From Vibrio lentus (lineage in GTDB: Bacteria; Pseudomonadota; Gammaproteobacteria; Enterobacterales; Vibrionaceae), in contig NZ_JAUFQE010000002.1 in the NCBI RefSeq assembly GCF_030409755.1, positions 744,001-808,000 of the forward strand: 64,000 nucleotides of DNA, in the 5' to 3' direction. Made by a program: the position numbers and the translations under genes. Below the pieces are notes generated by a model. That model did no database searches, had not been told where the DNA came from, and worked only from the letters and a program-made list of their open reading frames with translations. Every line of letters begins with the position of its first letter. The first letter of the stretch is position 1. Positions 44,078-58,459 of this stretch are shown here, piece after piece.

Positions 44078-45622
44078 GTGCGTCTTGAAGTATTGTGTGA
44101 AGACAGACTCGGCTTAACGCGTGAGTTGCTCGATATCTTGGCCTCAAAAAGCATTGATTTAAGAGGAATCGAAATTGATGTTAAAGGCATTATTTACCTA
44201 AACTGCCCTGATATTAATTTTGATGCTTTTAGTGAACTTATGGCTGAAATTCGCCGAATTTCAGGTGTGAAGGATGTACGTAAAATCCAATTTATGCCGA
44301 GCGAAAGGCATAATACCGAGCTGATTGCTCTGCTGGCTAACCTGCCAGATCCCGTGATTGCGATTGACCTTAAAGGCTCAGTCGACATGGCGAACCACGC
44401 TGCATTGAACCTATTCGGCAAGCAAGAAGACGAAGTCATCGGTGAGCCGCTAGCGACGTTTGTGCCTAGCTTTAACTTTGCTCGTTGGATCGAAGGCGAT
44501 GTAACGCGCCATCGTGAAGTCGTGGTGTTAGAAGGTTTGGACTTCTCTATCGAGATACTGCCGATTTATCTTGGCGGTGACGTTAACGAAGCGGTACTGG
44601 CGAGCGCAGTAATGACGATTCGTTCTTGTAATCAAGAGATGAATTCGCCAGATTCAATCCCTGAACAGAACAACCTAGGTTTTGAACACTTTGTTGGTGT
44701 CTCTAATCGCCATAAAGCCTTGATCAGCCAAGCTAAGAAATTGGCTATGCTGGATCAGCCTCTACTTATTGAAGGGGACACAGGTACGGGCAAAGAGATG
44801 TTGGCTAAAGCGTGTCATAACCGTTCGAACCGAGCGTCTTTCCCATTCTTGATTCTAAGCTGTGCATCAATGCCTGATGATGTGGCTGAAACTGAGTTGT
44901 TTGGTCATGCACCGGGTTCATTTAACCATGAACAAGGTCATAAAGGCATTTTCGAACAAGCGAATGGCGGTACGGTATTTTTAGATGAGATCGGCGAGAT
45001 GAGCCCGCATCTACAAATCAAACTGTTGCGTTTCCTACAAGATGGTTCATTCCGACGTGTAGGCGAAGAAGAAGAGATGCACGCCGATGTGCGTATTATC
45101 GCTTCAACACGTCATCGACTTTCTGAATTAGCTGACTCTGGTTCATTCCGTGAAGACCTGTTCTACCGTTTAAACGTTTTGACTCTGTCTATTCCGGCAC
45201 TGCGTGAACGCTCAAACGACGTAGCACCTTTGTTGGAACTCTTTGTCGCAAAATACGCACAGCAATTGGGCATGTTAAAACCAAAACTGACGGTAGAACT
45301 TATCGATCAGTTAGGGAACTACCAATGGCCGGGCAACATTCGTCAGTTAGACAACATGGTGCTGCGTGCATTAACTGAGTTAGATTCAGACACGTTAACC
45401 GTTGAGCAATTCCACTTGCCTCAACTAGAAACTATGACGGCAGGAATGGCGAACTTAAGCTTAGACGGTTCACTCGATGAGATCATGAAAGACTACGAGT
45501 CGCAGATTCTAGAGAAGCTGTATCAGTCGTTCCCATCGAGCCGAAAGTTGGCAAAACGTCTGAATGTTTCTCACACCTCAATTGCGAACAAACTTCGCGA
45601 TTACGGTATCAGAAAGAACTGA
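44078..45622 (+). CDS. tyrR: TyrR, aromatic amino acid regulator
   Basis: The 514-residue protein has an ACT domain (about 1-75, LEVLCEDRLGLTRELLDILA), a PAS domain (about 80-190), a sigma-54-type AAA+ core (about 207-430, GDTGTGKEMLAKA, ATPase motif GGTVFLDEIGEM) and a C-terminal Fis-like HTH (about 480-514, LAKRLNVSHTSIANKLRDYG). The sigma-54 contact loop GAFTGA is replaced (GHAPGSFNHE), as in known TyrR. It controls aromatic amino acid transport and synthesis. The start is a GTG at 44078. It follows ycjF by 123 bp. Confidence 0.93.
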   Translation: MRLEVLCEDRLGLTRELLDILASKSIDLRGIEIDVKGIIYLNCPDINFDAFSELMAEIRRISGVKDVRKIQFMPSERHNTELIALLANLPDPVIAIDLKGSVDMANHAALNLFGKQEDEVIGEPLATFVPSFNFARWIEGDVTRHREVVVLEGLDFSIEILPIYLGGDVNEAVLASAVMTIRSCNQEMNSPDSIPEQNNLGFEHFVGVSNRHKALISQAKKLAMLDQPLLIEGDTGTGKEMLAKACHNRSNRASFPFLILSCASMPDDVAETELFGHAPGSFNHEQGHKGIFEQANGGTVFLDEIGEMSPHLQIKLLRFLQDGSFRRVGEEEEMHADVRIIASTRHRLSELADSGSFREDLFYRLNVLTLSIPALRERSNDVAPLLELFVAKYAQQLGMLKPKLTVELIDQLGNYQWPGNIRQLDNMVLRALTELDSDTLTVEQFHLPQLETMTAGMANLSLDGSLDEIMKDYESQILEKLYQSFPSSRKLAKRLNVSHTSIANKLRDYGIRKN

Positions 45623-45634
45623 TCGAATAAGAAC

Positions 45635-46228
45635 ATGATTATGGAAGATTTGAGCACACCAGAACGCATTTATAAGCGCGATGGAAACCTGATTCTACGT
45701 ACCGCTGAGATAGATGATGCGAACATGATCAGTGATTACTTTCAAACTAACCGAGAGTACCTTAAGCCTTGGGAACCAATTCGTGAAGATGCGTTTTTTG
45801 ATAGAACGGGTTGGGCGCAGCGCCTGATTAAGCTAAACGAACTTCATAAAATGGGGCTAGGTTATTACTGTTTGCTTGTTAATGATGACACCAACGAAAT
45901 GTTGGGCACCATTTCATTCAGTAATCTGTCTCGATTCCCTTTCTATGCGTGTAACGTGGGCTATTCGCTTGCTGAAAGTGCACAAGGCCACGGTTACATG
46001 CGCAGAGGCTTAAGCATGGCAAAGGACTATATGTTTGATGTTCAGAACATGCATCGTTTGATGGCGGGTTATATGCCTCATAATGAGCGTAGCGCTGGTG
46101 TGTTGGAATATTTAGGTTTTGTTCGTGAAGGCTTTGCCAAAGATTATTTGCAGATCAACGGTAAATGGGAAGACCATATACTGACTGCACTAGTTAACCC
46201 GAACTGGGAAGATAGGCGCGCTGTTTAG
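45635..46228 (+). CDS. rimJ: RimJ-like GNAT N-acetyltransferase
   Basis: The 197-residue GNAT protein has the acetyl-CoA-binding motif A region (SLAESAQGHGYMRRGLSMA) and a late HNERSAGVLEYLGFVREG motif. E. coli RimJ acetylates ribosomal protein S5. It starts 12 bp after tyrR (ATG at 45635, or at 45641) and may be co-transcribed with it. The family is broad, so the substrate is inferred. Confidence 0.78.
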   Translation: MIMEDLSTPERIYKRDGNLILRTAEIDDANMISDYFQTNREYLKPWEPIREDAFFDRTGWAQRLIKLNELHKMGLGYYCLLVNDDTNEMLGTISFSNLSRFPFYACNVGYSLAESAQGHGYMRRGLSMAKDYMFDVQNMHRLMAGYMPHNERSAGVLEYLGFVREGFAKDYLQINGKWEDHILTALVNPNWEDRRAV

Positions 46229-46283
46229 ATACCAAGAGTCATTACGTGTAAGTATCAATTAAACGTAAATACAGATTTAGAGG

Positions 46284-46318
46284 CAGTGACGAACATAGAT
46301 AAAATGAAACCGTCACTG
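46284..46318. repeat. Inverted repeat after the rimJ-like gene
   Basis: CAGTGACG (46284-46291) and CGTCACTG (46311-46318) form a perfect 8-bp inverted repeat with a 19-nt spacer, in the gap before the DUF2947 gene. No T-run follows, so it is either a weak terminator or an operator. Confidence 0.4.
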
Positions 46319-46380
46319 TATCAAAAAGAGCATATAGGCATGGTAATCCATAAGCCTAAGAAGAAATTTGAGGAATTTTG

Positions 46381-46854
46381 ATGTCATATACAACTTTGGA
46401 CGAATACCAAAGAAAATGGATTTTTACTCACCAGTCGATGCCATTACCGGCAGAGGACTTGGAAAAGATTAAACCAATGACACAGGCAAGGGCGTCTCAG
46501 TTTTGGAAAGAGAACGTAAGCCCTCAAAGCCCGGACGCAGAAAGACTAAGTTCACAAGACTGGCCAAGCAAGGCATCCAACTGGAACGAAGAGATCAGCT
46601 GGATGGCAAATTGGGAAGCCGATGAGCCTGAAATGCCAGAAGAGATCCTTAACTTCATTGATTGGCAAGATGACGTAACTGTTTATTTTTGTTATGAAAA
46701 GTATAACATTCTCGAAACTAAATGGTCAGTTTTTAAGAAGCACTGGAAGAACTTTTTGTTCTACGATGATGGCCCAATTTTACTAGGTCGCCGTCGTTCA
46801 GAAGCACTTTGGTTTGCAACAAACGGCACCGTTAAAATTGGTAACCGAGCTTAA
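46381..46854 (+). CDS. DUF2947-like protein of unknown function (157 aa)
   Basis: The 157-residue cytoplasmic protein is rich in tryptophan and acidic residues (WMANWEADEPEMPEEILNF) and resembles the Vibrio DUF2947 family. No active site is apparent. The ATG at 46381 has AGGA six bases upstream; a TTG one codon earlier (46378) also opens the frame. It stands alone before a terminator shared with the convergent GGDEF gene. Confidence 0.65.
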   Translation: MSYTTLDEYQRKWIFTHQSMPLPAEDLEKIKPMTQARASQFWKENVSPQSPDAERLSSQDWPSKASNWNEEISWMANWEADEPEMPEEILNFIDWQDDVTVYFCYEKYNILETKWSVFKKHWKNFLFYDDGPILLGRRRSEALWFATNGTVKIGNRA

Positions 46855-46908: not shown

Positions 46909-47904
46909 TTAGAGCTGAGCATAACGTTTACTCATTTTGTTTTCATACATCTGCGTGTCTGCTAGTCGTATTAACTCTTCTATGGCTGGAATATTTGATG
47001 AGAAAATGAGTGAACCATGACTAAAGGTAGCATGGCAATCTATACCTAGTTTTTGAGAGTGTTTGTTAAAGTCTGATTGTATTCGGCTTAGAATCTTATT
47101 TAAGGAGCTTTCTGTGACGTCTCTACATAATAAGATAAATTCATCTCCTCCAAGCCTTCCACAAATATCTTCCTTGCGGGTGTTGTACTGAAGTGAATGA
47201 GAGAACGACTTTATATATTGGTCGCCAATATTATGTCCGAAGTTGTCATTGACATGCTTAAGACCATCAATATCAAAATAGGCAGCTCCAATGCTAACTC
47301 CACTATCTATGGCATTATCGATGAATTTAGGGGATTCACTTAATATGGCTCGCCTATTAAAAACCTGAGTTAACTCGTCATGATTAGAAGTGTATTTTAA
47401 TTTTCGTACCCGCTCAGCAATGTGAACCTCCCTCTCTAATAGAGCACTAATACTCTCCATTAAATTTATCTGTATCGGCTTATAAGAGGTCTCTTTAGTG
47501 TCTAGGGCACAAAGTGTCGCAAACATTCTGCCGTCTGATTGGAAGATGGGTAAGCCAAGATAAGAAACGTAACCCATTTGTGTCAGTTCTGGGTTGTCGC
47601 TCCACTCCTCTTTACCGGAAGCATTTTGTACATAAAGCATGGCCTTGGTTTCCATCACTTTCTTACAGTACAAATTGATGTCTCTAGGGATGATTTTTCC
47701 GGGGTTTGCTTTTACGCCTGGTGATGAAGACATAGCAATGTTTTGGAATCCAACTTTTGACGTAAGAATAAGCCCTACAGCCGGCGCATTAAGCACTTCT
47801 GCTATGTTGTTGAGCATACTTTTCCATAAAGAGAGGTCCATTTCTTTAACTAGATCATTGATGGCATATTTAGAACTGGATTGATATATATTGGTAAATG
47901 GCAT
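46909..47904 (-). CDS. GAF-GGDEF diguanylate cyclase
   Basis: The 331-residue protein has an N-terminal GAF domain (about 15-160) and a GGDEF domain (about 170-330) with intact active-site RLGGDEFILL and the substrate motif FDIDGLKHVNDNFGHN, so c-di-GMP synthesis is likely. It has no membrane segment and is cytoplasmic. GAF ligands are variable and not predicted here. It is monocistronic. Confidence 0.87.
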   Translation of the reverse strand: MPFTNIYQSSSKYAINDLVKEMDLSLWKSMLNNIAEVLNAPAVGLILTSKVGFQNIAMSSSPGVKANPGKIIPRDINLYCKKVMETKAMLYVQNASGKEEWSDNPELTQMGYVSYLGLPIFQSDGRMFATLCALDTKETSYKPIQINLMESISALLEREVHIAERVRKLKYTSNHDELTQVFNRRAILSESPKFIDNAIDSGVSIGAAYFDIDGLKHVNDNFGHNIGDQYIKSFSHSLQYNTRKEDICGRLGGDEFILLCRDVTESSLNKILSRIQSDFNKHSQKLGIDCHATFSHGSLIFSSNIPAIEELIRLADTQMYENKMSKRYAQL

Positions 47905-48532: not shown

Positions 48533-48568
48533 AAAAAGCCACTTTCAACGAACCGAAAGTGGCTTTTT
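48533..48568. terminator. Bidirectional terminator before the Hsp70 operon end
   Basis: The perfect 14-bp stem AAAAAGCCACTTTC / GAAAGTGGCTTTTT has an 8-nt loop and lies between the small-protein gene and the end of the Hsp70 operon. Confidence 0.92.
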
Positions 48569-48621: not shown

Positions 48622-51462
48622 CTAGCTATTGATCAGGCTTAAACCGCTTGGTAATGCATCACCAAACACGCGCTTAGACTCGCTCTCAGAAAGCTCAGTA
48701 ACTTCACTTACTAGCGTTAGCCAAGACTCTGGCACCTTGCTTTGCTTTAATTTTTCAAGAACCTGAGCACGGTAGTCATCAGAGATATCGAACTGTCGGT
48801 CACCCGTCTTACGACAAATCATCACAGCCGCGAAGGCAATCATCTGCTCTTTCTGCCAATTCTGGTCAAGCAGCTTTGGTAACCACTGTTCTGCTTGCTC
48901 TCTTGGAATTACGCTGTGTTGGCTTCCGTACAAAGGTGTACGAGACGCTAAGCGACCCAGAGCCCACCAGTGAGCTTGTTCGAACTGATTATGGTTAATC
49001 GCTTTGCTTAAGAACCAAGTCGCTAATAGAACCTTGTCTTCCACTTCCAGTTGTTCAAGTGACGCTGCCAATCTCACCATGGCTTCATAACCATTGTCTT
49101 GTGCATCTTTAGCCGTTTTAGGGTTCTTCATTGCACCTGGGTGAAGGTACTTCGCGATATCAGCCAAGATGCTCTCTTGCTGCTCTTGATTCAGGCCACC
49201 CGCAACTCGACGCCAGAATACCCACCAATCTGTCCAACCTTGATGGTTCTGGAATTGGATATTTTGTTGGTAGAGGCTCCAAATTTGTTCGATACGCCAT
49301 GAGTCAGTTGGAGCACCAAAGCCAGGCCGCATAGAGTAACCCGCTAAACGCAGCCAGTTTTTCTCGTGCGCTTCAGAGCGACGACGACGTTTACGACCTA
49401 ATGAGAACGAATCAAACAGGTGACGGAGAGTCGTAAAGTCCCACTCTTCGCGCTTACCAAGTCGTTTCTCAAGAGCTTTGGCCAGCGTTTTGATCTCTTT
49501 AGACTCAGCACTTTTCTTGTTGCCACTGTACAGACGAGAAATCAACTCCTTACACTCATCCAATCTTGGATGAAGTTTAGAGTTGTCGGATTCATCGCCT
49601 TGCTTGTTTCTGACTTCGAACTCAAGCAACCAACGCTTGGTGTCATCTTCCGTACTCACACACTCCATTTTCAATGTGCCGACTTCGGTTAACTGACAAG
49701 CAAGCAACACTTCAACACGCTCTTTTTGGTTGGCCTGAAGCTCTGCAGTGCCTGATCCTTCCAGCGTAGAAATATAAGGTGGAAGAGGGGAGAACAAGTC
49801 GGCATCCACATTGACCATCACGCCGTTTTGAATGGCAGTGTCGTGAGCAATTTGATCGTGCGTTGAAGTCAGTAGATTGAAACGTACGGGCTCACCCAAA
49901 GTCAGTGAGAAACGACGGCTGTTCAAACGTATCTCTTGGCCTTCTTCAGTCCCTTTAGCAAGCAGACAAAGTGCTTTACCCATCTTGTTCTTCTCTTGTA
50001 AATGCAAGAAGTAAGAACGAGCGGCACCACCACCAATTTTCAGCTGTGCACCACGGCGTGCTTTACCAAAAGCTACAGCACCAAGGGCTACAGACCAGTC
50101 AGGGTGAGGGTTATCTAAGACGGTGATTGGTGCACCGTTCCAATTGCCAAGTAACTGAGTAATACGTTCAGTGACAAGCTCACTGTTGAATACACCGCCG
50201 TTGAGTAGTACACCAACAGGAATCGCCGGTTTTGTCTCATCAAATTCGATTGTTCCAGATTTCTCTAGTGCCGCTTTTGATACTTGCTGGTGTGTCGCTA
50301 GGAATTCGGCAACGTGCTTACTTACCGCAGGATCTGCTGCGTAGGGTAGGCCGAACTCAACCACCGCGCTGCGGCGTTTGTCTGGCACTTCAGTGAACTC
50401 AGAAAGTGGGAAGAAACCTTCCAGAGCAATCTGATGAACTTCTTGCTTGGTTAAACCAATACTCTTCGTACCGCCAAGCAGTTTTGAACCGCTGCCCAGC
50501 ATGGTGATCTTCACATCGTCTGGCGCATTAGCAGAAAGCAGGCTCTCTTTTGCGGCGCGAGTTTGCTGAATAAGCTTGGTTAGGCTAGACGCATTCAGCT
50601 TTTTGTTTTGATTGAAGCGTTGTTCTGCAAGGTGAGCAAGGGCTAAATCGAGGTTATCACCCCCGAGCATCAAGTGCTCACCAACGCCGATACGGTCGAG
50701 TGCGAGTTCTTGGTCATTGCCATTGCTTGAGTTGAAGCTAGCTTCGATCAAACTTAAATCGGTAGTACCGCCACCAACATCACACACTAGAATCAGCGGG
50801 ATCTGTTGAAGTTCGTCTGCAGCGGTTTTTTGATGACGGGCGTACCAGTCATAACAAACGGCTTGTGGCTCTTCGAGTAACAGAATCTTACCTAAGCCCG
50901 CCAGTTCTGCCGCTTCGAGTGTCAGCTTACGTGCTGTCTCATCGAATGAAGCGGGAACAGTTACTACAACGTCTTGGTCTTCAAGCTTATTGCTTGGGTT
51001 ACGGTAGTTCCATGCTTGACGGATGTGGTTCAGGTAGCTTGCGCTTGCGACAACAGGAGAGACCTTATCGACGTCAGTTGCGCCTGCCCAAGGCAGAATG
51101 TCGGAGTTACGATCAACTGCTTGGTGAGATAACCAGCTCTTAGCACTGGATACTTGGCGGCCTTCAACTTTTGCGCCCAGTTCGCGAGCCCACTCACCAA
51201 CGATGACGTTTTGAATATCACCTTCAACCAAGCTCGGTTCCCAAGGCATAGTGAGATCGGAAGGGGAGATCTGACCTTGTGCCGGATGGTAACGAAATGA
51301 AGGAAGTAGCGGCTTGCGAACCACTTCACCGGGGCCGATGAGTTGGTCAATATCGAAAAGAGAAACGGGAGCATGTTGTAGGTCGTCGTTGATTTCACAG
51401 TAGGCAACCACAGTGTTGGTTGTACCTAAGTCAATGCCGACTAAAAAACGAGGAGATGCCAT
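48622..51462 (-). CDS. Hsp70-family protein with long DUF3731-type C-terminus
   Basis: The 946-residue protein has an Hsp70-type nucleotide-binding domain in its first half (phosphate loop VGIDLGTTNTVVAYCE at residue 8, second loop VCDVGGGTTDLSL near 230, and GVLLNGGVFNS near 405). The C-terminal half (about 480-946) is not the DnaK substrate domain but a long helical region of the DUF3731 type. A run GRKRRRRSEAHEKNW near residue 695 is strongly basic. It is the third gene of the operon, separated from the second by 138 bp with a hairpin. Function is unknown; a chaperone-like ATPase is inferred from the fold. Confidence 0.8.
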   Translation of the reverse strand: MASPRFLVGIDLGTTNTVVAYCEINDDLQHAPVSLFDIDQLIGPGEVVRKPLLPSFRYHPAQGQISPSDLTMPWEPSLVEGDIQNVIVGEWARELGAKVEGRQVSSAKSWLSHQAVDRNSDILPWAGATDVDKVSPVVASASYLNHIRQAWNYRNPSNKLEDQDVVVTVPASFDETARKLTLEAAELAGLGKILLLEEPQAVCYDWYARHQKTAADELQQIPLILVCDVGGGTTDLSLIEASFNSSNGNDQELALDRIGVGEHLMLGGDNLDLALAHLAEQRFNQNKKLNASSLTKLIQQTRAAKESLLSANAPDDVKITMLGSGSKLLGGTKSIGLTKQEVHQIALEGFFPLSEFTEVPDKRRSAVVEFGLPYAADPAVSKHVAEFLATHQQVSKAALEKSGTIEFDETKPAIPVGVLLNGGVFNSELVTERITQLLGNWNGAPITVLDNPHPDWSVALGAVAFGKARRGAQLKIGGGAARSYFLHLQEKNKMGKALCLLAKGTEEGQEIRLNSRRFSLTLGEPVRFNLLTSTHDQIAHDTAIQNGVMVNVDADLFSPLPPYISTLEGSGTAELQANQKERVEVLLACQLTEVGTLKMECVSTEDDTKRWLLEFEVRNKQGDESDNSKLHPRLDECKELISRLYSGNKKSAESKEIKTLAKALEKRLGKREEWDFTTLRHLFDSFSLGRKRRRRSEAHEKNWLRLAGYSMRPGFGAPTDSWRIEQIWSLYQQNIQFQNHQGWTDWWVFWRRVAGGLNQEQQESILADIAKYLHPGAMKNPKTAKDAQDNGYEAMVRLAASLEQLEVEDKVLLATWFLSKAINHNQFEQAHWWALGRLASRTPLYGSQHSVIPREQAEQWLPKLLDQNWQKEQMIAFAAVMICRKTGDRQFDISDDYRAQVLEKLKQSKVPESWLTLVSEVTELSESESKRVFGDALPSGLSLINS

Positions 51463-51570
51463 ACAAAACCTTATTCTGCCAAAGTGATGACCAGTTAATG
51501 GATAGTCTTGGTCTTATTATTGTCTTTGGAATGCTTTTAATACAGGGCTAGGGAATCGCATTGATAAAGT

Positions 51571-51594
51571 AACGGCACCCGTTAAGGTGCCGTT
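51571..51594 (-). terminator. Intercistronic hairpin between the two Hsp70 genes
   Basis: AACGGCACC (51571-51579) and GGTGCCGTT (51586-51594) form a 9-bp stem with a 6-nt loop, 7 bp after the stop of the upstream Hsp70 gene. The minus-strand downstream stretch is only moderately T-rich (ACTTTATC), so it may reduce rather than stop read-through to the third gene. Confidence 0.55.
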
Positions 51595-51600
51595 GATTCA

Positions 51601-53580
51601 TTATGCTTGTTCGTTTGAGTCGCTATTCGTATCTTCACGAACGTCGAACTCAACGTGCCATTTCTGACCATTGTCAGTGGCAATCGCTTCTAGGTATAAC
51701 GTGCCTAATTCAGTAACACGAGACGCTAAAGTCACCGGAACCACTTCACCTTCGCGACGACCTTCAGAAACAGGCAGTGTCACTTGGATTTCAGGAAGTT
51801 CATCAAGATCTTCTGGAGCCCAGTGATCAAGGTGCGTACCTGCTTGGTCTTCACGACGTGTTGTTGAACCGAAGAATTGGAAGTGTACTGGCTGACCAAT
51901 CACTAGACCGAACTCTTGGCTAGGCACTTGAACGCTTGAGCCTTCTTCCATACCAAATGGTGCAACACACAGAGCTTCCATCGGAGGAGCCATACCTGGG
52001 ATAGCTGGCATCGCGCTTTCAATTCCTACGTAGTAAGAAGAAGCGATGCCACCGCGGATACGAACGCCTTGGCCACGACGTACTGCGCCGTAGTAAGAAG
52101 CGCCACTTGCAACCGCTAGGTCTAAGTCTAAGCCTGAAAGCTGTTTAGCGAATTCAGCGTCTGCGTTAATTAGCCATTCATTGATCGTGTCTGAAAGACG
52201 ATCAGCAAGTAGGTTAGATTTTAGAACACCACCATTGAACAGTACCGCTGTTGGTTTGATGAAGTCTGCCGCTGGCGCTTCTGACCCTTGCGCTTCTGTA
52301 CCGGGCATACCGGGCATGTTTGCAAATGGGTTGAAATCTTGTTGAGCCGTTTCGCTGTTTCCAGAAAGCGCGTTCGCTTGTTTAGAAAGGAATGCGGCAA
52401 TGTGACGAGTAATACCTGCGTCTTGAGCGTAAGGCAGACCCATTTGAGTCAGTGCACCACGAGTTTTCTGTACCGGGTGATCCGTTACAGCGACTTGTGG
52501 GAAGAAGCCGTCAACCAATGTTTGTTGTACTTCTTGCTGAGTCAGTTCTGTTTTCAGTGTTGCGCCAAGTAGCTTAGAGCCACGGCTTGGAACAACGATC
52601 GGCACAGATTGAAGGTCAGCATCGTTTAACAGTGCTTCTTTCGCATCACGACATGCATGAGTCATCGCTTGAACCTGCCAAGGAGCCAGTTCTTTGCCTT
52701 CTTGAGCCAGTTTCATTTTCAGACGGTAAGCTAACGCTAAGTCCATGTTGTCGCCGCCAAGTAGGATGTGTTCACCTACTGCGATACGGTTCAGACTTAG
52801 GTTGCCTTCATCTTGTGTTACTTCAACTAACGAAAGGTCAGTTGTACCACCACCGATATCGACAACAAGAACGATGTCGCCAACATTCACTTCATCACGC
52901 CATGTATCGTTGCTGTTATCAATCCAGCTGTAAAGAGCCGCTTGTGGCTCTTCTAGAAGCGTTAGGTGAGTAAAACCAACATTACGTGCAGCCTCAGCCG
53001 TTAGGTCACGAGCCGCAGGATCAAACGAAGCTGGAACGGTGATCGTTACATCTTGGTCTGCCAGTTTGTGTTCTGGGTTAGCGTGGTTCCAAGCATCTTT
53101 CAGGTGCTCTAGGTACAACTCAGTTGTCTTAAGCGGAGATACTTTTTCAACTTCTTCAGGGCTACCTGCAGGAAGAAACGCATCGCGACGGTTCACACCA
53201 CCGTGGCATAGCCAAGATTTAGCACTTGCGACCAAGCGGATAGGGGTTTTAGAACCAAGGTTACGAGCAATAGCACCAACCAGTGCTTTAGGCTCAGAAG
53301 ACCAAGGCAGAACGCGAGAACCCGCATTCATTTCATGTTCGTGTGGCTGGTATAGGAACGAGCCTAGTTGGCTGCGAGTTTCTACTGTACCAGGTGCAGT
53401 TAGCTGAGGGATTTGCATCACCTCTACACGAGCATCTTCATTGGTTGTGTCGATGTAAGACAAAACGCAGTGTGTTGTACCTAAATCGATACCAACACTG
53501 AACTTAGGCGCCTGATGTTGCTCTTGAGAATGCGTCTGTGCAGATGACTCGTGCGATGATGGCTGAGTTTGGTGTTCCAT
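51601..53580 (-). CDS. Hsp70-family protein (659 aa), second operon gene
   Basis: The 659-residue protein has an N-terminal variable tail rich in Gln/His/Ser (residues 1-25), then an Hsp70 nucleotide-binding domain (SVGIDLGTTHCVLSYID; DIGGGTTDLSLVEV; GGDNMDLALAY). The nucleotide domain has an insertion rich in Pro, Met and Gly near residue 410 (NMPGMPGTEAQ). The C-terminal third is beta-like, with no DnaK EEVD end. It resembles the 946-residue partner in the ATPase part but is shorter. The ATG overlaps the upstream stop by 1 nt (TAATG), so coupling is likely. Confidence 0.8.
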   Translation of the reverse strand: MEHQTQPSSHESSAQTHSQEQHQAPKFSVGIDLGTTHCVLSYIDTTNEDARVEVMQIPQLTAPGTVETRSQLGSFLYQPHEHEMNAGSRVLPWSSEPKALVGAIARNLGSKTPIRLVASAKSWLCHGGVNRRDAFLPAGSPEEVEKVSPLKTTELYLEHLKDAWNHANPEHKLADQDVTITVPASFDPAARDLTAEAARNVGFTHLTLLEEPQAALYSWIDNSNDTWRDEVNVGDIVLVVDIGGGTTDLSLVEVTQDEGNLSLNRIAVGEHILLGGDNMDLALAYRLKMKLAQEGKELAPWQVQAMTHACRDAKEALLNDADLQSVPIVVPSRGSKLLGATLKTELTQQEVQQTLVDGFFPQVAVTDHPVQKTRGALTQMGLPYAQDAGITRHIAAFLSKQANALSGNSETAQQDFNPFANMPGMPGTEAQGSEAPAADFIKPTAVLFNGGVLKSNLLADRLSDTINEWLINADAEFAKQLSGLDLDLAVASGASYYGAVRRGQGVRIRGGIASSYYVGIESAMPAIPGMAPPMEALCVAPFGMEEGSSVQVPSQEFGLVIGQPVHFQFFGSTTRREDQAGTHLDHWAPEDLDELPEIQVTLPVSEGRREGEVVPVTLASRVTELGTLYLEAIATDNGQKWHVEFDVREDTNSDSNEQA

Positions 53581-54212
53581 TATAGCTCCACCTCTGCCGG
53601 TGCAATCACAGATGCATCGTAGTTCTCAGCAAGTTTAGGCAGGTTCATGTCAGTTGCTTTCCAACCTTTGTGAACCAATGTGCCATTGAACGGTGCATTG
53701 CCCGTTACGTTGCCTGTTAGGCGAATTTCTTGTGGGTTGAAGCCTTCAACAACTGTGATGCGCGTTTCTTCATCTTCTGTGCGGATGTGAGACAGCGTTA
53801 CGTAGTCTGTTAGTACTTTTTTACCGCCAGTGTGAATAACACGTGCTGCTGCACCAACTTCTTCATCAGAGAACGAAGTCAGGTCTTCTTTTAGGAAGTC
53901 GATTAAACGCGCTTCTTGTTGCATGATAGACAGAAGTTGCATTGCAGAATCTGTCGGTGCTGTTGCTAGCTTAGATTCAACTTCAACGACTTTCTCGATC
54001 ACTTTTTCTACTTCAACAACTTTCTCTACTTCGACAATTTTTTCAACTTGCTTTTCAACTTCAACGATTTTCTCTACTGGTTTTTCTACGACTTTCTCAA
54101 CCACTTTGGTTTTACGAGAAACGGCAATTAACAGTAGTAAAACGCTTGATGCAGTTAGGCCTGCGTGAAGCATATCAAACGTCTGTGGGATTAGGTTCAA
54201 ATCAACGATCAT
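53580..54212 (-). CDS. DUF2760 protein with VEK-repeat linker (210 aa)
   Basis: The 210-residue protein has an N-terminal hydrophobic segment (about 14-31), a repetitive linker of VEK/VEV units (residues 36-79, as in KIVEVEKVVEVEK), and a C-terminal DUF2760 domain (about 90-205). The linker is charged and helical and could be a coiled coil. It suggests a membrane-anchored partner for the two Hsp70 proteins. It is the first gene of the operon and overlaps the next by 1 nt. The function is unknown. Confidence 0.8.
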   Translation of the reverse strand: MIVDLNLIPQTFDMLHAGLTASSVLLLLIAVSRKTKVVEKVVEKPVEKIVEVEKQVEKIVEVEKVVEVEKVIEKVVEVESKLATAPTDSAMQLLSIMQQEARLIDFLKEDLTSFSDEEVGAAARVIHTGGKKVLTDYVTLSHIRTEDEETRITVVEGFNPQEIRLTGNVTGNAPFNGTLVHKGWKATDMNLPKLAENYDASVIAPAEVEL

Positions 54213-54321: not shown

Positions 54322-54351
54322 TAAATATGGGTGGATACTAGCATATTCAAG
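54322..54351 (-). promoter_or_regulatory. Candidate sigma-32 heat-shock promoter of the DUF2760 operon
   Basis: On the minus strand CTTGAAT (54345-54351) is followed, after 12 bases, by ACCCATATTTA (54322-54332). These match the RpoH elements CTTGAAA and CCCCATATTTA closely, with the same spacing as the groE promoter. The predicted start would leave a leader of about 100 nt before the ATG at 54212. A second CTTGAAA lies at 54312-54318. The remainder of 54213-54560 contains no gene. Confidence 0.6.
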
Positions 54352-54560: not shown

Positions 54561-56099
54561 ATGCCTCACACCACCGACCCATTAACAGGGTTGAAGAGAC
54601 GAACTCTCCCATTGGTCGTATTTGCGGTCAGTTTTTTGATTACTGTGTTGTGTTTTATCTTAGTCGCGCTGAACCAAAATCGCGCACTGAATATGAATTT
54701 GAATAGTTTTGCTAATCATCAGACCCTGAGCTTGGAAGCATTTATCGGTAATGATGTAGCTTACATAGGTTCCGGCGCTAATTTTTTCTATTCCAATGAT
54801 CCCGAGAACTGGGATAAATTCGACCGCTTTGCTCAACAAACCATTAACGATTCAAAGAGTCTAATCGGTTTGCAGTGGATGCAAAAAGTGTCAGTAGATG
54901 AGATTGCTGAACACACGGCTAAAATGGAAGAAAAGTACCCATTCTATAAGCTATTCACCATCCCGAAGCATGAAGCAAAAACCTATGGCTACATCTTAGA
55001 TGGCGCGCCAGCTTTTATCGCCAGCGATATCTATCCCAATACCCCAGCGAACGATAGAGTCCTCGGTTTTTACTCTTCTCGCGAGCGATTTAAGCTTGTC
55101 TTAGAAAACATTAAACAGACACGCGAAGCGAATATTTCAGACAAGGTTCGCTTGATACAAGATGGCTTAGAACAAGAGACACCAAAGAGTGGCATGTTGG
55201 TTTATCACCCTGTGTTTGAAGGCGAAAGCGACAATTTACTCGGTGTTGTGATTGGTGTGGTTCGCACTACGTATTACTTTGAAAATCTGCTGGCGTCTGC
55301 GGTGGGTGATATGGATGTTTATGTTCGTGTTACCGATACTGGATTCGAAGCGGAAGATTCGCCAATATTGTTCGAAACTGATGGCTATGACGCGGTATCT
55401 GGGCACCACATAACCAAGACAATCGCACTGACCAACCGTGACTGGAAGGTTGAGTACAAGATAGATTCATGCATCTCTTTTTATGGCTATTTGGTGTTAA
55501 CAGGCATCGCATTGGTCGGTACAACCATCTCATTGTTGTTGGCGTATATCGTTAACATGCAAATCAGAGAGAAAGAGCGTTTGTATCGGATGCTGAATAA
55601 GCGAACTGAAGAACTTCGCTTCTTAGCTGATCACGACAGCCTGACGGAAATTTATAACCGACGCGCGTTCAATAAGAAGCTAGACAAAGCCATTGAGCGA
55701 AACCAGCCCTTTAGTCTCGTTGGGTTTGATATCGATAAGTTCAAAGGCATTAATGATCAATTTGGCCACCCTGCAGGTGATGCCTTACTTATTCATGTCA
55801 TCAAACTGATCTCGGTGAACTTGAAAGAAGGGGACGACCTGTTCCGCTTAGGTGGTGATGAGTTTTGCATTATTTCTAGCATCTCAAACCATGAAGCCCT
55901 GAATCGTTACTTAGACTGCATTATCAACACCGTAAGTCACTCTCATTGTGAACACAAAGGTCGACAGTTAAGTTGTACTTTGAGTATCGGTGCAGCCATT
56001 CGTGACGGTGAGGACTCTGAAGAGATTATGCAAAAAGCGGACAGCATGCTCTACCAAAGTAAGTCAAATGGCCGAAATAGAGTCACAATTGCAGGCTAA
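54561..56099 (+). CDS. Membrane CHASE-GGDEF diguanylate cyclase
   Basis: The 512-residue protein has an N-terminal membrane helix (about 15-37), a periplasmic CHASE-type sensor domain (about 55-270), a second helix (about 300-330) and a C-terminal GGDEF domain (about 350-510) with RLGGDEFCI and FDIDKFKGINDQFGH intact. It should make c-di-GMP in response to an external signal. GGAA precedes the ATG at 54561. It is divergent from the DUF2760 operon. Confidence 0.87.
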   Translation: MPHTTDPLTGLKRRTLPLVVFAVSFLITVLCFILVALNQNRALNMNLNSFANHQTLSLEAFIGNDVAYIGSGANFFYSNDPENWDKFDRFAQQTINDSKSLIGLQWMQKVSVDEIAEHTAKMEEKYPFYKLFTIPKHEAKTYGYILDGAPAFIASDIYPNTPANDRVLGFYSSRERFKLVLENIKQTREANISDKVRLIQDGLEQETPKSGMLVYHPVFEGESDNLLGVVIGVVRTTYYFENLLASAVGDMDVYVRVTDTGFEAEDSPILFETDGYDAVSGHHITKTIALTNRDWKVEYKIDSCISFYGYLVLTGIALVGTTISLLLAYIVNMQIREKERLYRMLNKRTEELRFLADHDSLTEIYNRRAFNKKLDKAIERNQPFSLVGFDIDKFKGINDQFGHPAGDALLIHVIKLISVNLKEGDDLFRLGGDEFCIISSISNHEALNRYLDCIINTVSHSHCEHKGRQLSCTLSIGAAIRDGEDSEEIMQKADSMLYQSKSNGRNRVTIAG

Positions 56100-57137: not shown

Positions 57138-58459
57138 CTTGCGAATCCCCTCATAATCAGGCTTAAAAACAATGAGGTAGACGTGCATCGCCGTCTTTGA
57201 TCTAATGAATATCGCTGAACACACATTTCGAACAAGTGGGTTAATAATGCGCGACATTCAGATTCTACAACAAACCATACAAAACCAATGCCCCTCCATT
57301 CACAAAAAACGCGTTAGTTCTCTGATACTTGCTACAAAAAGTGTACTTGACGGCTCAGACTTAACGCTGACTAAACTAGGTCGCAAACTAGAAACTAATA
57401 CCACGGTAAAACATGCGATCAAACGCGTTGATAGACTGCTTGGAAATCGCCAACTACATCGTGAAAAAGACCTTATTTATAAATGGCATGCCTACTTAAT
57501 AACGGGCGCTAACCCATGCCCTGTGATCCTTGTGGATTGGTCTGATGTTCGTGAACAACTTCGTTATATGACGTTAAGAGCATCCGTTGCACTTGATGGT
57601 CGAGCCGTCACAATCTTTGAACAAGTTTTTGAGTATGGCCAATACAATTCACCGAAAAGTCACCAAACATTCCTCGATAAATTGCAGAGTATTTTGCCGA
57701 ATAAAATCAGTCCGATCATCGTTTCTGATGCGGGTTTTAGAAATACTTGGTTCCGCCAAGTTCAGGAGAAAGGTTGGTTTTGGTTAGGTCGTGTCCGAGG
57801 TGAAGTATCAATCAAACAACCTCAAAAACCTTGGGTCTCAAATAAAACCTTTTATCCAAACGCTGTCCATAAACCCAAATATCTTGGCAACTGCTTATTA
57901 GCAAAGAGATCACCGATATCTTGTGAAGCCTATGTTTATAAGGGATTAGAAAAAGGCCGAAAAGCCCAGCGCCATAGTAGAACCAGCCAAAAACACTCCG
58001 CTACACATCTCTATCAACGCAGTGCAAAGGAGCCGTGGCTACTCGCGACTAATGTCCCTCGACATATCTTAAATGAAGTACAAATTACCAATCTGTACGC
58101 CAAGCGTATGCAGATAGAAGAAGCCTTCCGCGATCTAAAGAGTACCGCCTATGGGATCGCACTTCGTCACAACAGAACTCGCTGTACTAAGCGATTAGAT
58201 ATCCTGCTTCTTATTGCGTTGCTCGCTGAAATCTTGATGTGGTGGAATGGCCTAATTGCAGTACAAGCCAAATGGCATTTTGACTTCCAAGCCAACAGCA
58301 TTAAACACCGCCGAGTTCTATCCATACCTCGTCTAGGGAGAGAGGTACGAAATCATCGGCGATATCAAATTAATGAATCCCAATATCAATGGGGAATGTT
58401 CGAATATCAAAGGCTCACACACAACGCAGGACTAGGGAAATTATGAGGGGATCCGTCAG
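57138..58459 (+). mobile_element. IS10-like element (IS4 family), 1322 bp
   Basis: The ends are imperfect inverted repeats: left CTTGCGAATCCCCTCATAAT and right (read inward) CTGACGGATCCCCTCATAAT, matching at 17 of the first 21 positions. The 9-bp target duplications CGCCTGAAT flank it at 57129-57137 and 58460-58468. The size is close to IS10 (1329 bp) and the right end GAGGGGATCCGTCAG is nearly the same as IS10. The element has one transposase gene. The insertion is inside a cytochrome b561 gene on the opposite strand. Confidence 0.93.
57247..58446 (+). CDS. IS10-like transposase
   Basis: The 399-residue DDE transposase resembles Tn10 IS10 across its length (KHAIKRVDRLLGNRQLHREKDLIYKWHA; VLVDWSDVREQLRYMTLRASVALDGR; SKRMQIEE-type region). 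Aspartates in LVDWSD and IIVSDAGF and a glutamate in RMQIEEAFRDLKS form the DDE set. The ATG at 57247 (MRDIQILQQ) aligns with the IS10 transposase start; the in-frame start at 57205 adds 14 residues. The frame is intact, so the element may be active. Confidence 0.93.
   Translation: MRDIQILQQTIQNQCPSIHKKRVSSLILATKSVLDGSDLTLTKLGRKLETNTTVKHAIKRVDRLLGNRQLHREKDLIYKWHAYLITGANPCPVILVDWSDVREQLRYMTLRASVALDGRAVTIFEQVFEYGQYNSPKSHQTFLDKLQSILPNKISPIIVSDAGFRNTWFRQVQEKGWFWLGRVRGEVSIKQPQKPWVSNKTFYPNAVHKPKYLGNCLLAKRSPISCEAYVYKGLEKGRKAQRHSRTSQKHSATHLYQRSAKEPWLLATNVPRHILNEVQITNLYAKRMQIEEAFRDLKSTAYGIALRHNRTRCTKRLDILLLIALLAEILMWWNGLIAVQAKWHFDFQANSIKHRRVLSIPRLGREVRNHRRYQINESQYQWGMFEYQRLTHNAGLGKL

Follow-up and report, generated by a model that had tools for sequence, protein, structure and literature searches.

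A conserved bacterial gene set joins DUF2760 to two divergent Hsp70-like ATPases

A 64,000-nucleotide stretch of the Vibrio lentus genome (contig NZ_JAUFQE010000002.1, positions 744,001 to 808,000; hereafter the window) encodes a DUF2760 protein together with two Hsp70-like ATPases, which we term HspA and HspB. The three genes form a real, conserved gene set with few exceptions. We propose, with evenly balanced confidence, that their products make up a dedicated, stress-induced, membrane-associated Hsp70 machine. The genes lie on the minus strand and are transcribed in the order DUF2760, HspA, HspB. DUF2760 (53580..54212, 210 amino acids) carries the PF10816 domain (E 1.3e-53), HspA (51601..53580, 659 amino acids) matches PF00012 with 60.1 bits (E 1.6e-16, cut-off 20.6), and HspB (48622..51462, 946 amino acids) matches the same family with 62.6 bits (E 2.9e-17, cut-off 20.6). 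A first-pass annotation made from the letters alone had named three such genes and an Hsp70 of 946 residues, and we could verify the open reading frames (ORFs), their Pfam families and this length. The DUF2760 and HspA genes overlap by one base (TAATG). The annotation had written of TAATG overlaps in the plural, which is wrong for the window, because HspA and HspB are separated by a gap of 138 bp.

Co-inheritance of the three genes

We searched a sample of 299 genomes drawn from the phylum Pseudomonadota. PF10816 is found in 22 of them, and an HspA-family profile (E ≤ 1e-40) selects exactly the same 22 genomes. PF12531, the DUF3731 domain of HspB, is present in 21 of the 22, and none of the three families was detected in the remaining 277 genomes. 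The order DUF2760-HspA-HspB is kept on one contig in 20 of the 22 genomes. In the sole genome without PF12531 (G026), HspA lies at the very end of a contig, and in another (G053, loci L069 and L070) HspA is followed by a 205-residue ORF and a 609-residue TPR protein. DUF2760, HspA and DUF3731 travel together across genomes, so the absence of co-occurrence that would speak against a dedicated unit is not seen, and the near-perfect co-occurrence and gene order back the unit that the first-pass annotation had proposed.

At the level of single loci, HspA follows DUF2760 in all of 80 named loci, which are the best 80 of 500 confirmed and mostly from Vibrionaceae. HspB comes next in 75; among the other five, three contigs stop inside HspA and two belong to Methylococcales. 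The DUF2760-HspA junction measures -4 to +3 bp in 74 of the 80 loci. A single operon, as claimed earlier, is thus well supported for DUF2760 and HspA and no more than plausible for HspB. The HspA/HspB junction is also coupled in three loci of other lineages (L059, L060 and L062; gap -1), it widens to 317-511 bp in L064, L066 and L068, and in L054 a porin gene and a Na/Ca-exchanger gene sit between HspA and HspB.

In a sample of the family Vibrionaceae, DUF2760 is found in 117 of 150 genomes and in 6 of 13 genera. The system is present in 51 genomes of the same genus, and all of the 20 negatives listed (13 further ones are unlisted) are from other genera, which argues for a genus-core rather than an island-like distribution. 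DUF2760 is on record from V. cholerae, V. parahaemolyticus, V. vulnificus, Comamonas, Delftia, Photobacterium, Aliivibrio, Burkholderia and Bradyrhizobium. We rejected the idea of a mobile element, since none of 50,697 phage records and only 11 of 72,556 plasmids match the system. On a conjugative plasmid of Bradyrhizobium sp. CB82 (L217, NZ_CP121651.1), groES-groEL is located ∼1 kb downstream of the trio.

Two divergent Hsp70-like ATPases

HspA and HspB align with DnaK over the whole nucleotide-binding domain (hhalign E 8e-23 and 2.5e-21, respectively), with ∼25% sequence identity in these alignments. We scored the active site motifs in 90 HspA, 96 HspB (12 HspB loci counted twice) and 28 DnaK rows. 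The phosphate-1 motif, the lysine of a SAKSWL motif, which superposes on DnaK K70, and the phosphate-2 motif are present in 90/90 HspA and 96/96 HspB rows, and a glutamate preceding a proline is found in 88/90 and 95/96 rows, respectively. The residues corresponding to DnaK Glu171 and Arg151 are likewise kept. A candidate adenosine motif, xNGGx, occurs in 90/90 HspA and 93/96 HspB rows; the same pattern matched 0/28 DnaK rows, so the forms of the adenosine motif differ from DnaK. The motifs of HspB are intact, and the loss of ATPase residues in the second Hsp70, which the first-pass annotation had named as an argument against its chaperone reading, is not observed.

Both proteins are members of the Hsp70 superfamily, with PF00012 scores above the cut-off and the core motifs retained. 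HspB also belongs to the PF12531/DUF3731 subfamily of Hsp70 proteins, with the domain (residues 696-943; minus strand, E 6.7e-100, 334.5 bits, cut-off 25) following the Hsp70 core. Their scores against the NCBIfam equivalog models for DnaK are far lower than the cut-offs (at most 59.2 of 648 bits and 54.2 of 822.55 bits, both for HspB). The top NCBIfam match of either protein is HscA, at sub-threshold scores (80.6 bits against cut-offs of 620 and 708.55 for HspA; 84.9 against 620 and 82.4 against 708.55 for HspB). PRK11678, with a cut-off of 331 bits, is matched with 36.4 bits by HspA and 27.5 bits by HspB. As positive controls from the same genome, its own HscA scores 1036.3 bits (cut-off 620) and its own 450-residue PRK11678 protein, encoded on contig C1, scores 718.3 bits (cut-off 331).

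In a midpoint-drawn tree of 64 hand-chosen rows, without an identified HscC row, all 27 HspA rows group together (support 100/99), and HspA and HspB are separate from DnaK and HscA (support 97/90). The PRK11678 protein of the genome has a branch too long for placement. HspA orthologues of the most remote lineages share 40-44% identity with HspA of the window and are thus nearer to it than HspA is to HspB (∼37-39%), which supports an old origin for HspA. HspB orthologues from those lineages share 30-37% identity, and judging from these values an old origin appears less clear for HspB.

The nucleotide-binding domain extends to about residue 503 in HspA and to about residue 472 in HspB. It is followed in both proteins by a common C-terminal domain (E 8e-30), which is unlike that of DnaK. 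There is no further segment in HspA where the lid of DnaK would sit, whereas in HspB this place is taken by DUF3731. At the level of profiles, the non-DnaK C-termini noted in the first-pass annotation are borne out. We considered a DnaK-type substrate-binding domain for this region and found no profile match, the profiles being shallow enough that likeness at the level of the fold is possible. An interdomain linker of the form [VI]LL[LI]D is present in 8/8 DnaK segments and in 0/83 HspA and 0/42 HspB segments found, in a pattern search that failed to locate the segment in 20/28 DnaK, 7/90 HspA and 42/84 HspB rows. An overlay by eye of the segment GVRIRGGIASSYYVGIES, which comes next to the nucleotide-binding domain on its C-terminal side, on the DnaK linker DVLLLDVTPLSLGIET was not significant.

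DnaK R167 touches the aspartate of the J-domain HPD motif, according to the retrieved text of a 2021 review (PMC8215388). The equivalent residue is arginine in 28/28 DnaK, 2/88 HspA and 10/95 HspB sequences, and most HspA and HspB proteins have thus lost the J-docking arginine. With GrpE and J-domain searches we covered 101 loci of the system, including the whole window. No GrpE-like ORF was detected by hidden Markov model (HMM) in any of them, with a control grpE being detected. J-domain ORFs are found in 6/101 loci, all from Photobacterium (L121, L123, L124, L131, L146 and L153) and located ∼3.2-6.2 kb upstream of the operon; the three that were scanned (L124, L131 and L146) encode PF12339 'DnaJ-related' proteins. 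The absence of J-domain and GrpE genes, as first claimed, holds for the window.

Membrane attachment, promoter and proposed mechanism

In the window, DUF2760 consists of a hydrophobic helix (about residues 14-32), a VEK-repeat linker (about residues 36-80), the PF10816 domain (residues 87-209; minus strand, 180.5 bits, cut-off 25) and the C-terminal tail APAEVEL; both the membrane helix and the VEK linker had been pointed out in the first-pass annotation. A hydrophobic 19-mer (mean hydropathy ≥ 1.6) is present within the first 100 residues of 94/102 DUF2760 proteins, mostly from Vibrionaceae, and in the C-terminal 123 residues of 0/102. The tail follows the pattern A[PQ]A[EQ][VI]E[LV](K) in 195 of 222 sequences (102 from the loci and 120 best database matches, a redundant set), and the other 27 end in AAAEVEL (24), TPAEVEL, SAAEVEL or ATAELEL. 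HxGW and LP motifs are among the invariant positions. By sequence, no relatives of DUF2760 were found in the PDB, the best match (E 0.82) being to unrelated proteins. The linker is a VEK/VEVP repeat much like that of Vibrio in L052 and L054, and proline-rich instead in L050, L053, L059 and L060.

A sigma-32-like promoter, CTTGAA-N13-ACCCATAT, is located at 54322..54351 on the minus strand and begins 139 bp upstream of the DUF2760 start codon. It matches 12 of the 13 scored positions of the consensus CTTGAA-N12..16-CCCCATNT. Of 82 upstream regions, 47 score at least 11 (Markov shuffles predict 1.95, and the reverse strand gives 3/82) and 21 score at least 12 (the shuffles predict 0.09, and the reverse strand gives 1), the regions coming from related loci and not being independent trials. 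By genus, a score of at least 11 is reached in 36/48 Vibrio, 7/19 Photobacterium, 3/3 Aliivibrio and 1/12 other regions, leaving 35/82 below this value. The Photobacterium element has a different distance and different flanks from that of Vibrio. Vibrio grpE promoters combine a CTTGAAT or CTTGAAA box with CCCCAT at the same spacing. A strict search of the V. lentus genome with CTTGAA-N12-15-CCCCATNT returned three matches, none of them at the operon, whose element has one mismatch. These elements suggest that RpoH (sigma-32) probably transcribes the operon, in a heat-induced manner, in many Vibrionaceae.

In the machine that we propose, the N-terminal helix of DUF2760 would anchor the protein in the inner membrane, and the spacer would expose the conserved domain and the tail (..A(P/Q/A)AEVEL) on the cytoplasmic side. 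There, DUF2760 would recruit HspA, a contact that we infer from the translational coupling of the two genes and from the conserved tail. HspA and its longer paralogue HspB may act as an unequal pair on membrane clients, and, in rough analogy to Hsp110 with Hsp70, the DUF3731 domain of HspB could provide a lid, a scaffold or an exchange arm specific to its partner. Neither the J-docking residue nor the DnaK-type linker is retained, and the ATPase cycle would thus probably be controlled within the set instead of by DnaJ and GrpE.

Several findings weigh against this machine. In G053, the DUF3731 gene is on another contig and its frame is broken; HspB is absent from the 1.1-1.5 kb that remain of the two Methylococcales contigs past the HspA gene; and the plasmid pTs485 of Candidatus Thiodictyon syntrophicum (NZ_CP020372.1, L216) carries DUF2760-HspA with no DUF3731 anywhere on the plasmid. 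HspB is not a single group in our tree, for which the program warned of a possible misplacement of two HspB rows with long branches. By profile, the C-terminal domains are unlike the substrate-binding domain of DnaK, so that the binding of clients is a prediction. The N-terminus of beta-proteobacterial DUF2760 proteins is less hydrophobic (FLSRxSLAxGxFFAxLGD type), and those of L062 and L063 also score lower in hydropathy. For this reason the membrane tether suggested at first stands as a hydrophobic N-terminus in most copies, and tethering itself as a prediction. The promoter scores less than 11 in 12/48 Vibrio, 12/19 Photobacterium and 11/12 other regions, three loci of the same genus (L051, L058 and L061) score 9-10, and 18/18 further regions from outside Vibrionaceae score 7-10. 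A TGnTAnnAT motif inside the Vibrio element also fits an extended -10 promoter for sigma-70, and the element may be recognized by both sigma factors. Finally, PF12339 is found in 15/22 genomes with DUF2760 compared with 43/277 others (one-sided Fisher test 2.4e-7, ignoring kinship).

This enrichment keeps alive the main alternative, which we regard as possible but clearly less likely than the machine proposed, in which HspA and HspB are divergent Hsp70s dependent on a J-protein encoded elsewhere (DnaJ or the PF12339 protein) and DUF2760 is a targeting factor. The PF12339 protein is the candidate J-partner, and the J-domain genes upstream of six Photobacterium operons, of which the three scanned encode PF12339 proteins, fit such a role, as does the precedent of HscC, which relies on its own J-proteins according to the review text retrieved (PMC8215388). 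PF12339 is, however, missing from 7/22 operon genomes, including all four of one family (f9), and we rejected it as a strict partner on this count. The poorly conserved J-docking arginine and the lack of a DnaK-type linker in the segments found also speak against dependence on a J-protein.

It is rather improbable that the set has no role in folding and that its two Hsp70/actin-fold ATPases instead assemble with DUF2760 into a membrane-bound scaffold or regulatory switch driven by ATP, comparable to FtsA or MreB. The C-terminal domains without similarity to a substrate-binding domain would fit such a scaffold, and HspA matches MreB_Mbl with 29.4 bits, just above the cut-off of 27 (HspB, with 22.8 bits, stays under it). 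However, the Hsp70 matches of both proteins are stronger, the MreB match is confined to a part of the ATPase core common to these families, and the heat-shock-like promoter and the one groES-groEL neighbour indicate protein quality control.

We further compared DUF2760 with GrpE, as it could be a membrane-bound, GrpE-related nucleotide-exchange factor for HspA and HspB. The end of DUF2760 (GTLVHKGW..LP..APAEVEL) looks by eye like that of GrpE (TVxxVMQKGY..RPAMVMV). An hhalign comparison of 42 DUF2760 with 18 GrpE sequences, in which both profiles were shallow (Neff about 3), aligned a single column with a probability of 0.2 percent, and the GrpE HMM has no match in the 101 loci. We thus rejected DUF2760 as a relative of GrpE and consider this explanation very unlikely; a functional analogy to GrpE without homology is possible. 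Least probable of all is an anti-phage defence system, which could be read from the position of DUF2760-HspA on pTs485, between anti-phage-annotated genes (DUF1156 and phospholipase D-like) and a TIR-FHA gene, and from weak PADLOC matches of the ATPase core to PDC-M61B (E 4.7e-7 and 2e-7), but which is at odds with the genus-core distribution and with the phage and plasmid counts given above.

Among known systems, the set comes closest to other Hsp70s. The retrieved review text distinguishes three prokaryotic Hsp70 types, DnaK, HscA and HscC (PMC8215388). HspA and HspB resemble HscA and HscC in being Hsp70 paralogues present alongside DnaK, and differ from HscA by their sub-threshold scores and their position in the tree. 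HscA and HscC rely on J-proteins of their own (PMC8215388). They share with PRK11678 'molecular chaperone' proteins, which we take to be the YegD family, an Hsp70 ATPase core that is not followed by the C-terminal domains of DnaK, but score far below the cut-off that the PRK11678 copy of this genome passes. In eukaryotes, Hsp70 and Hsp110 are unequal Hsp70 paralogues that cooperate, one of them with an enlarged C-terminal part. HspA and HspB likewise are two unequal paralogues, one enlarged C-terminally, an analogy only, for which the sequences were not compared and there is no evidence for a common descent of the pairing; in addition, a third, apparently membrane-anchored partner is found here. 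We tentatively suggest that the set could represent a further Hsp70 class beside DnaK, HscA and HscC, a membrane-tethered, J-independent hetero-Hsp70 in which DUF2760, by way of its nearly invariant tail, would take over both recruiting and triggering from the J-protein, and HspB would act on HspA in an Hsp110-like way. If true, it would be a bacterial counterpart to the division of labour between Hsp70 and Hsp110. Hsp70 proteins are generally assumed to be controlled by J-proteins and exchange factors, a rule that this set would test directly. DUF2760 and DUF3731, both domains of unknown function, would gain a testable role.

The V. cholerae operon and neighbouring genes

The orthologous operon in V. 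cholerae is VC1375-VC1374-VC1373. A 22-bp HapR site from chromatin immunoprecipitation (ChIP) is listed for VC1375<>VC1376 in the accessible text of a study, which also reports that HapR activates a 'VC1375 promoter' in vivo and in vitro (PMC10328515). Allowing at most one mismatch, we located this 22-mer in 1 of 227 genomes of the same genus, with a GGDEF gene on one side and, on the other, a DUF2760 gene that is followed by HspA and whose product is 74% identical to that of the window. The divergent GGDEF gene starts ∼15 bp from this site and DUF2760 326 bp from it, and the nearest mapped transcription start is on the plus strand and was taken as that of VC1376. As the site adjoins the divergent gene and a plus-strand start, we do not take quorum control of the chaperone operon as established; HapR may act on the cyclic di-GMP (GGDEF) gene rather than on the operon. 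For the window, we rejected control by HapR: its best site match is at the level of shuffled sequences, the site of V. cholerae lacks conservation, and neither the upstream region of the window nor the others showed a HapR site that stood out. The window contains a divergent CHASE-GGDEF gene upstream of DUF2760 (54561..56099, plus strand), which is homologous to the GGDEF gene beside DUF2760 in the genome with the HapR site.

In the portions of the literature retrieved, VC1373-1375 are given as one operon, with VC1374 among genes repressed in biofilms (PMC9201469), VC1374 is lowered in an untreated vc1639 mutant (log2 -2.7; PMC5636140), and VC1373 has a value of -1.0 in the transcriptome table of a riboflavin/iron study (PMC5816637). 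In these portions, the papers list or assay the loci, and the proteins themselves are not their subject. The words DUF2760 and DUF3731 are absent from the open-licence literature that was searched, subscription papers being outside this search. Two further candidates were dismissed: the peptide listed for a 'DnaK-related protein' of P. angustum in the retrieved part of PMC3706606 is absent from HspA, HspB and DUF2760 of L123 and L124, and 'VC1374' in that of PMC9608740 is a strain name.

Two stem-loops accompany the operon on the minus strand. One (51570..51595) is located in the HspA-HspB gap just 3' of the HspA stop codon and has no T-run on the minus strand; it may, speculatively, be an attenuator or stability element. 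The second (48533..48568), downstream of HspB, comprises 14 pairs with T-runs on both strands and is likely the end of the operon, in a scan that over its whole length returned 8 terminator-like sites compared with 7.7 in shuffles, that is, no excess. Beyond it lies a GAF-GGDEF gene (46909-47904, minus strand), and the operon of the window is therefore flanked by two GGDEF genes. Further downstream, positions 44078-46854 (plus strand) encode a DUF2947 protein (PF11163, E 7.5e-67), a GNAT acetyltransferase and an ACT-PAS-sigma54-activator protein that we read as TyrR-like.

Across lineages, the recurrent neighbours of the set are shadow ORFs and genes shared within Vibrionaceae (GGDEF, exonuclease). 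An ABC-transporter ORF recurs near L117, L129, L141 and L144, and one ORF with no family assignment near L052, L054, L143 and L150; the scanned neighbours are otherwise diverse. In the window, a DDE transposase gene (57205-58446, plus strand; PF01609, E 2.6e-18) is found ∼3 kb upstream of the operon.

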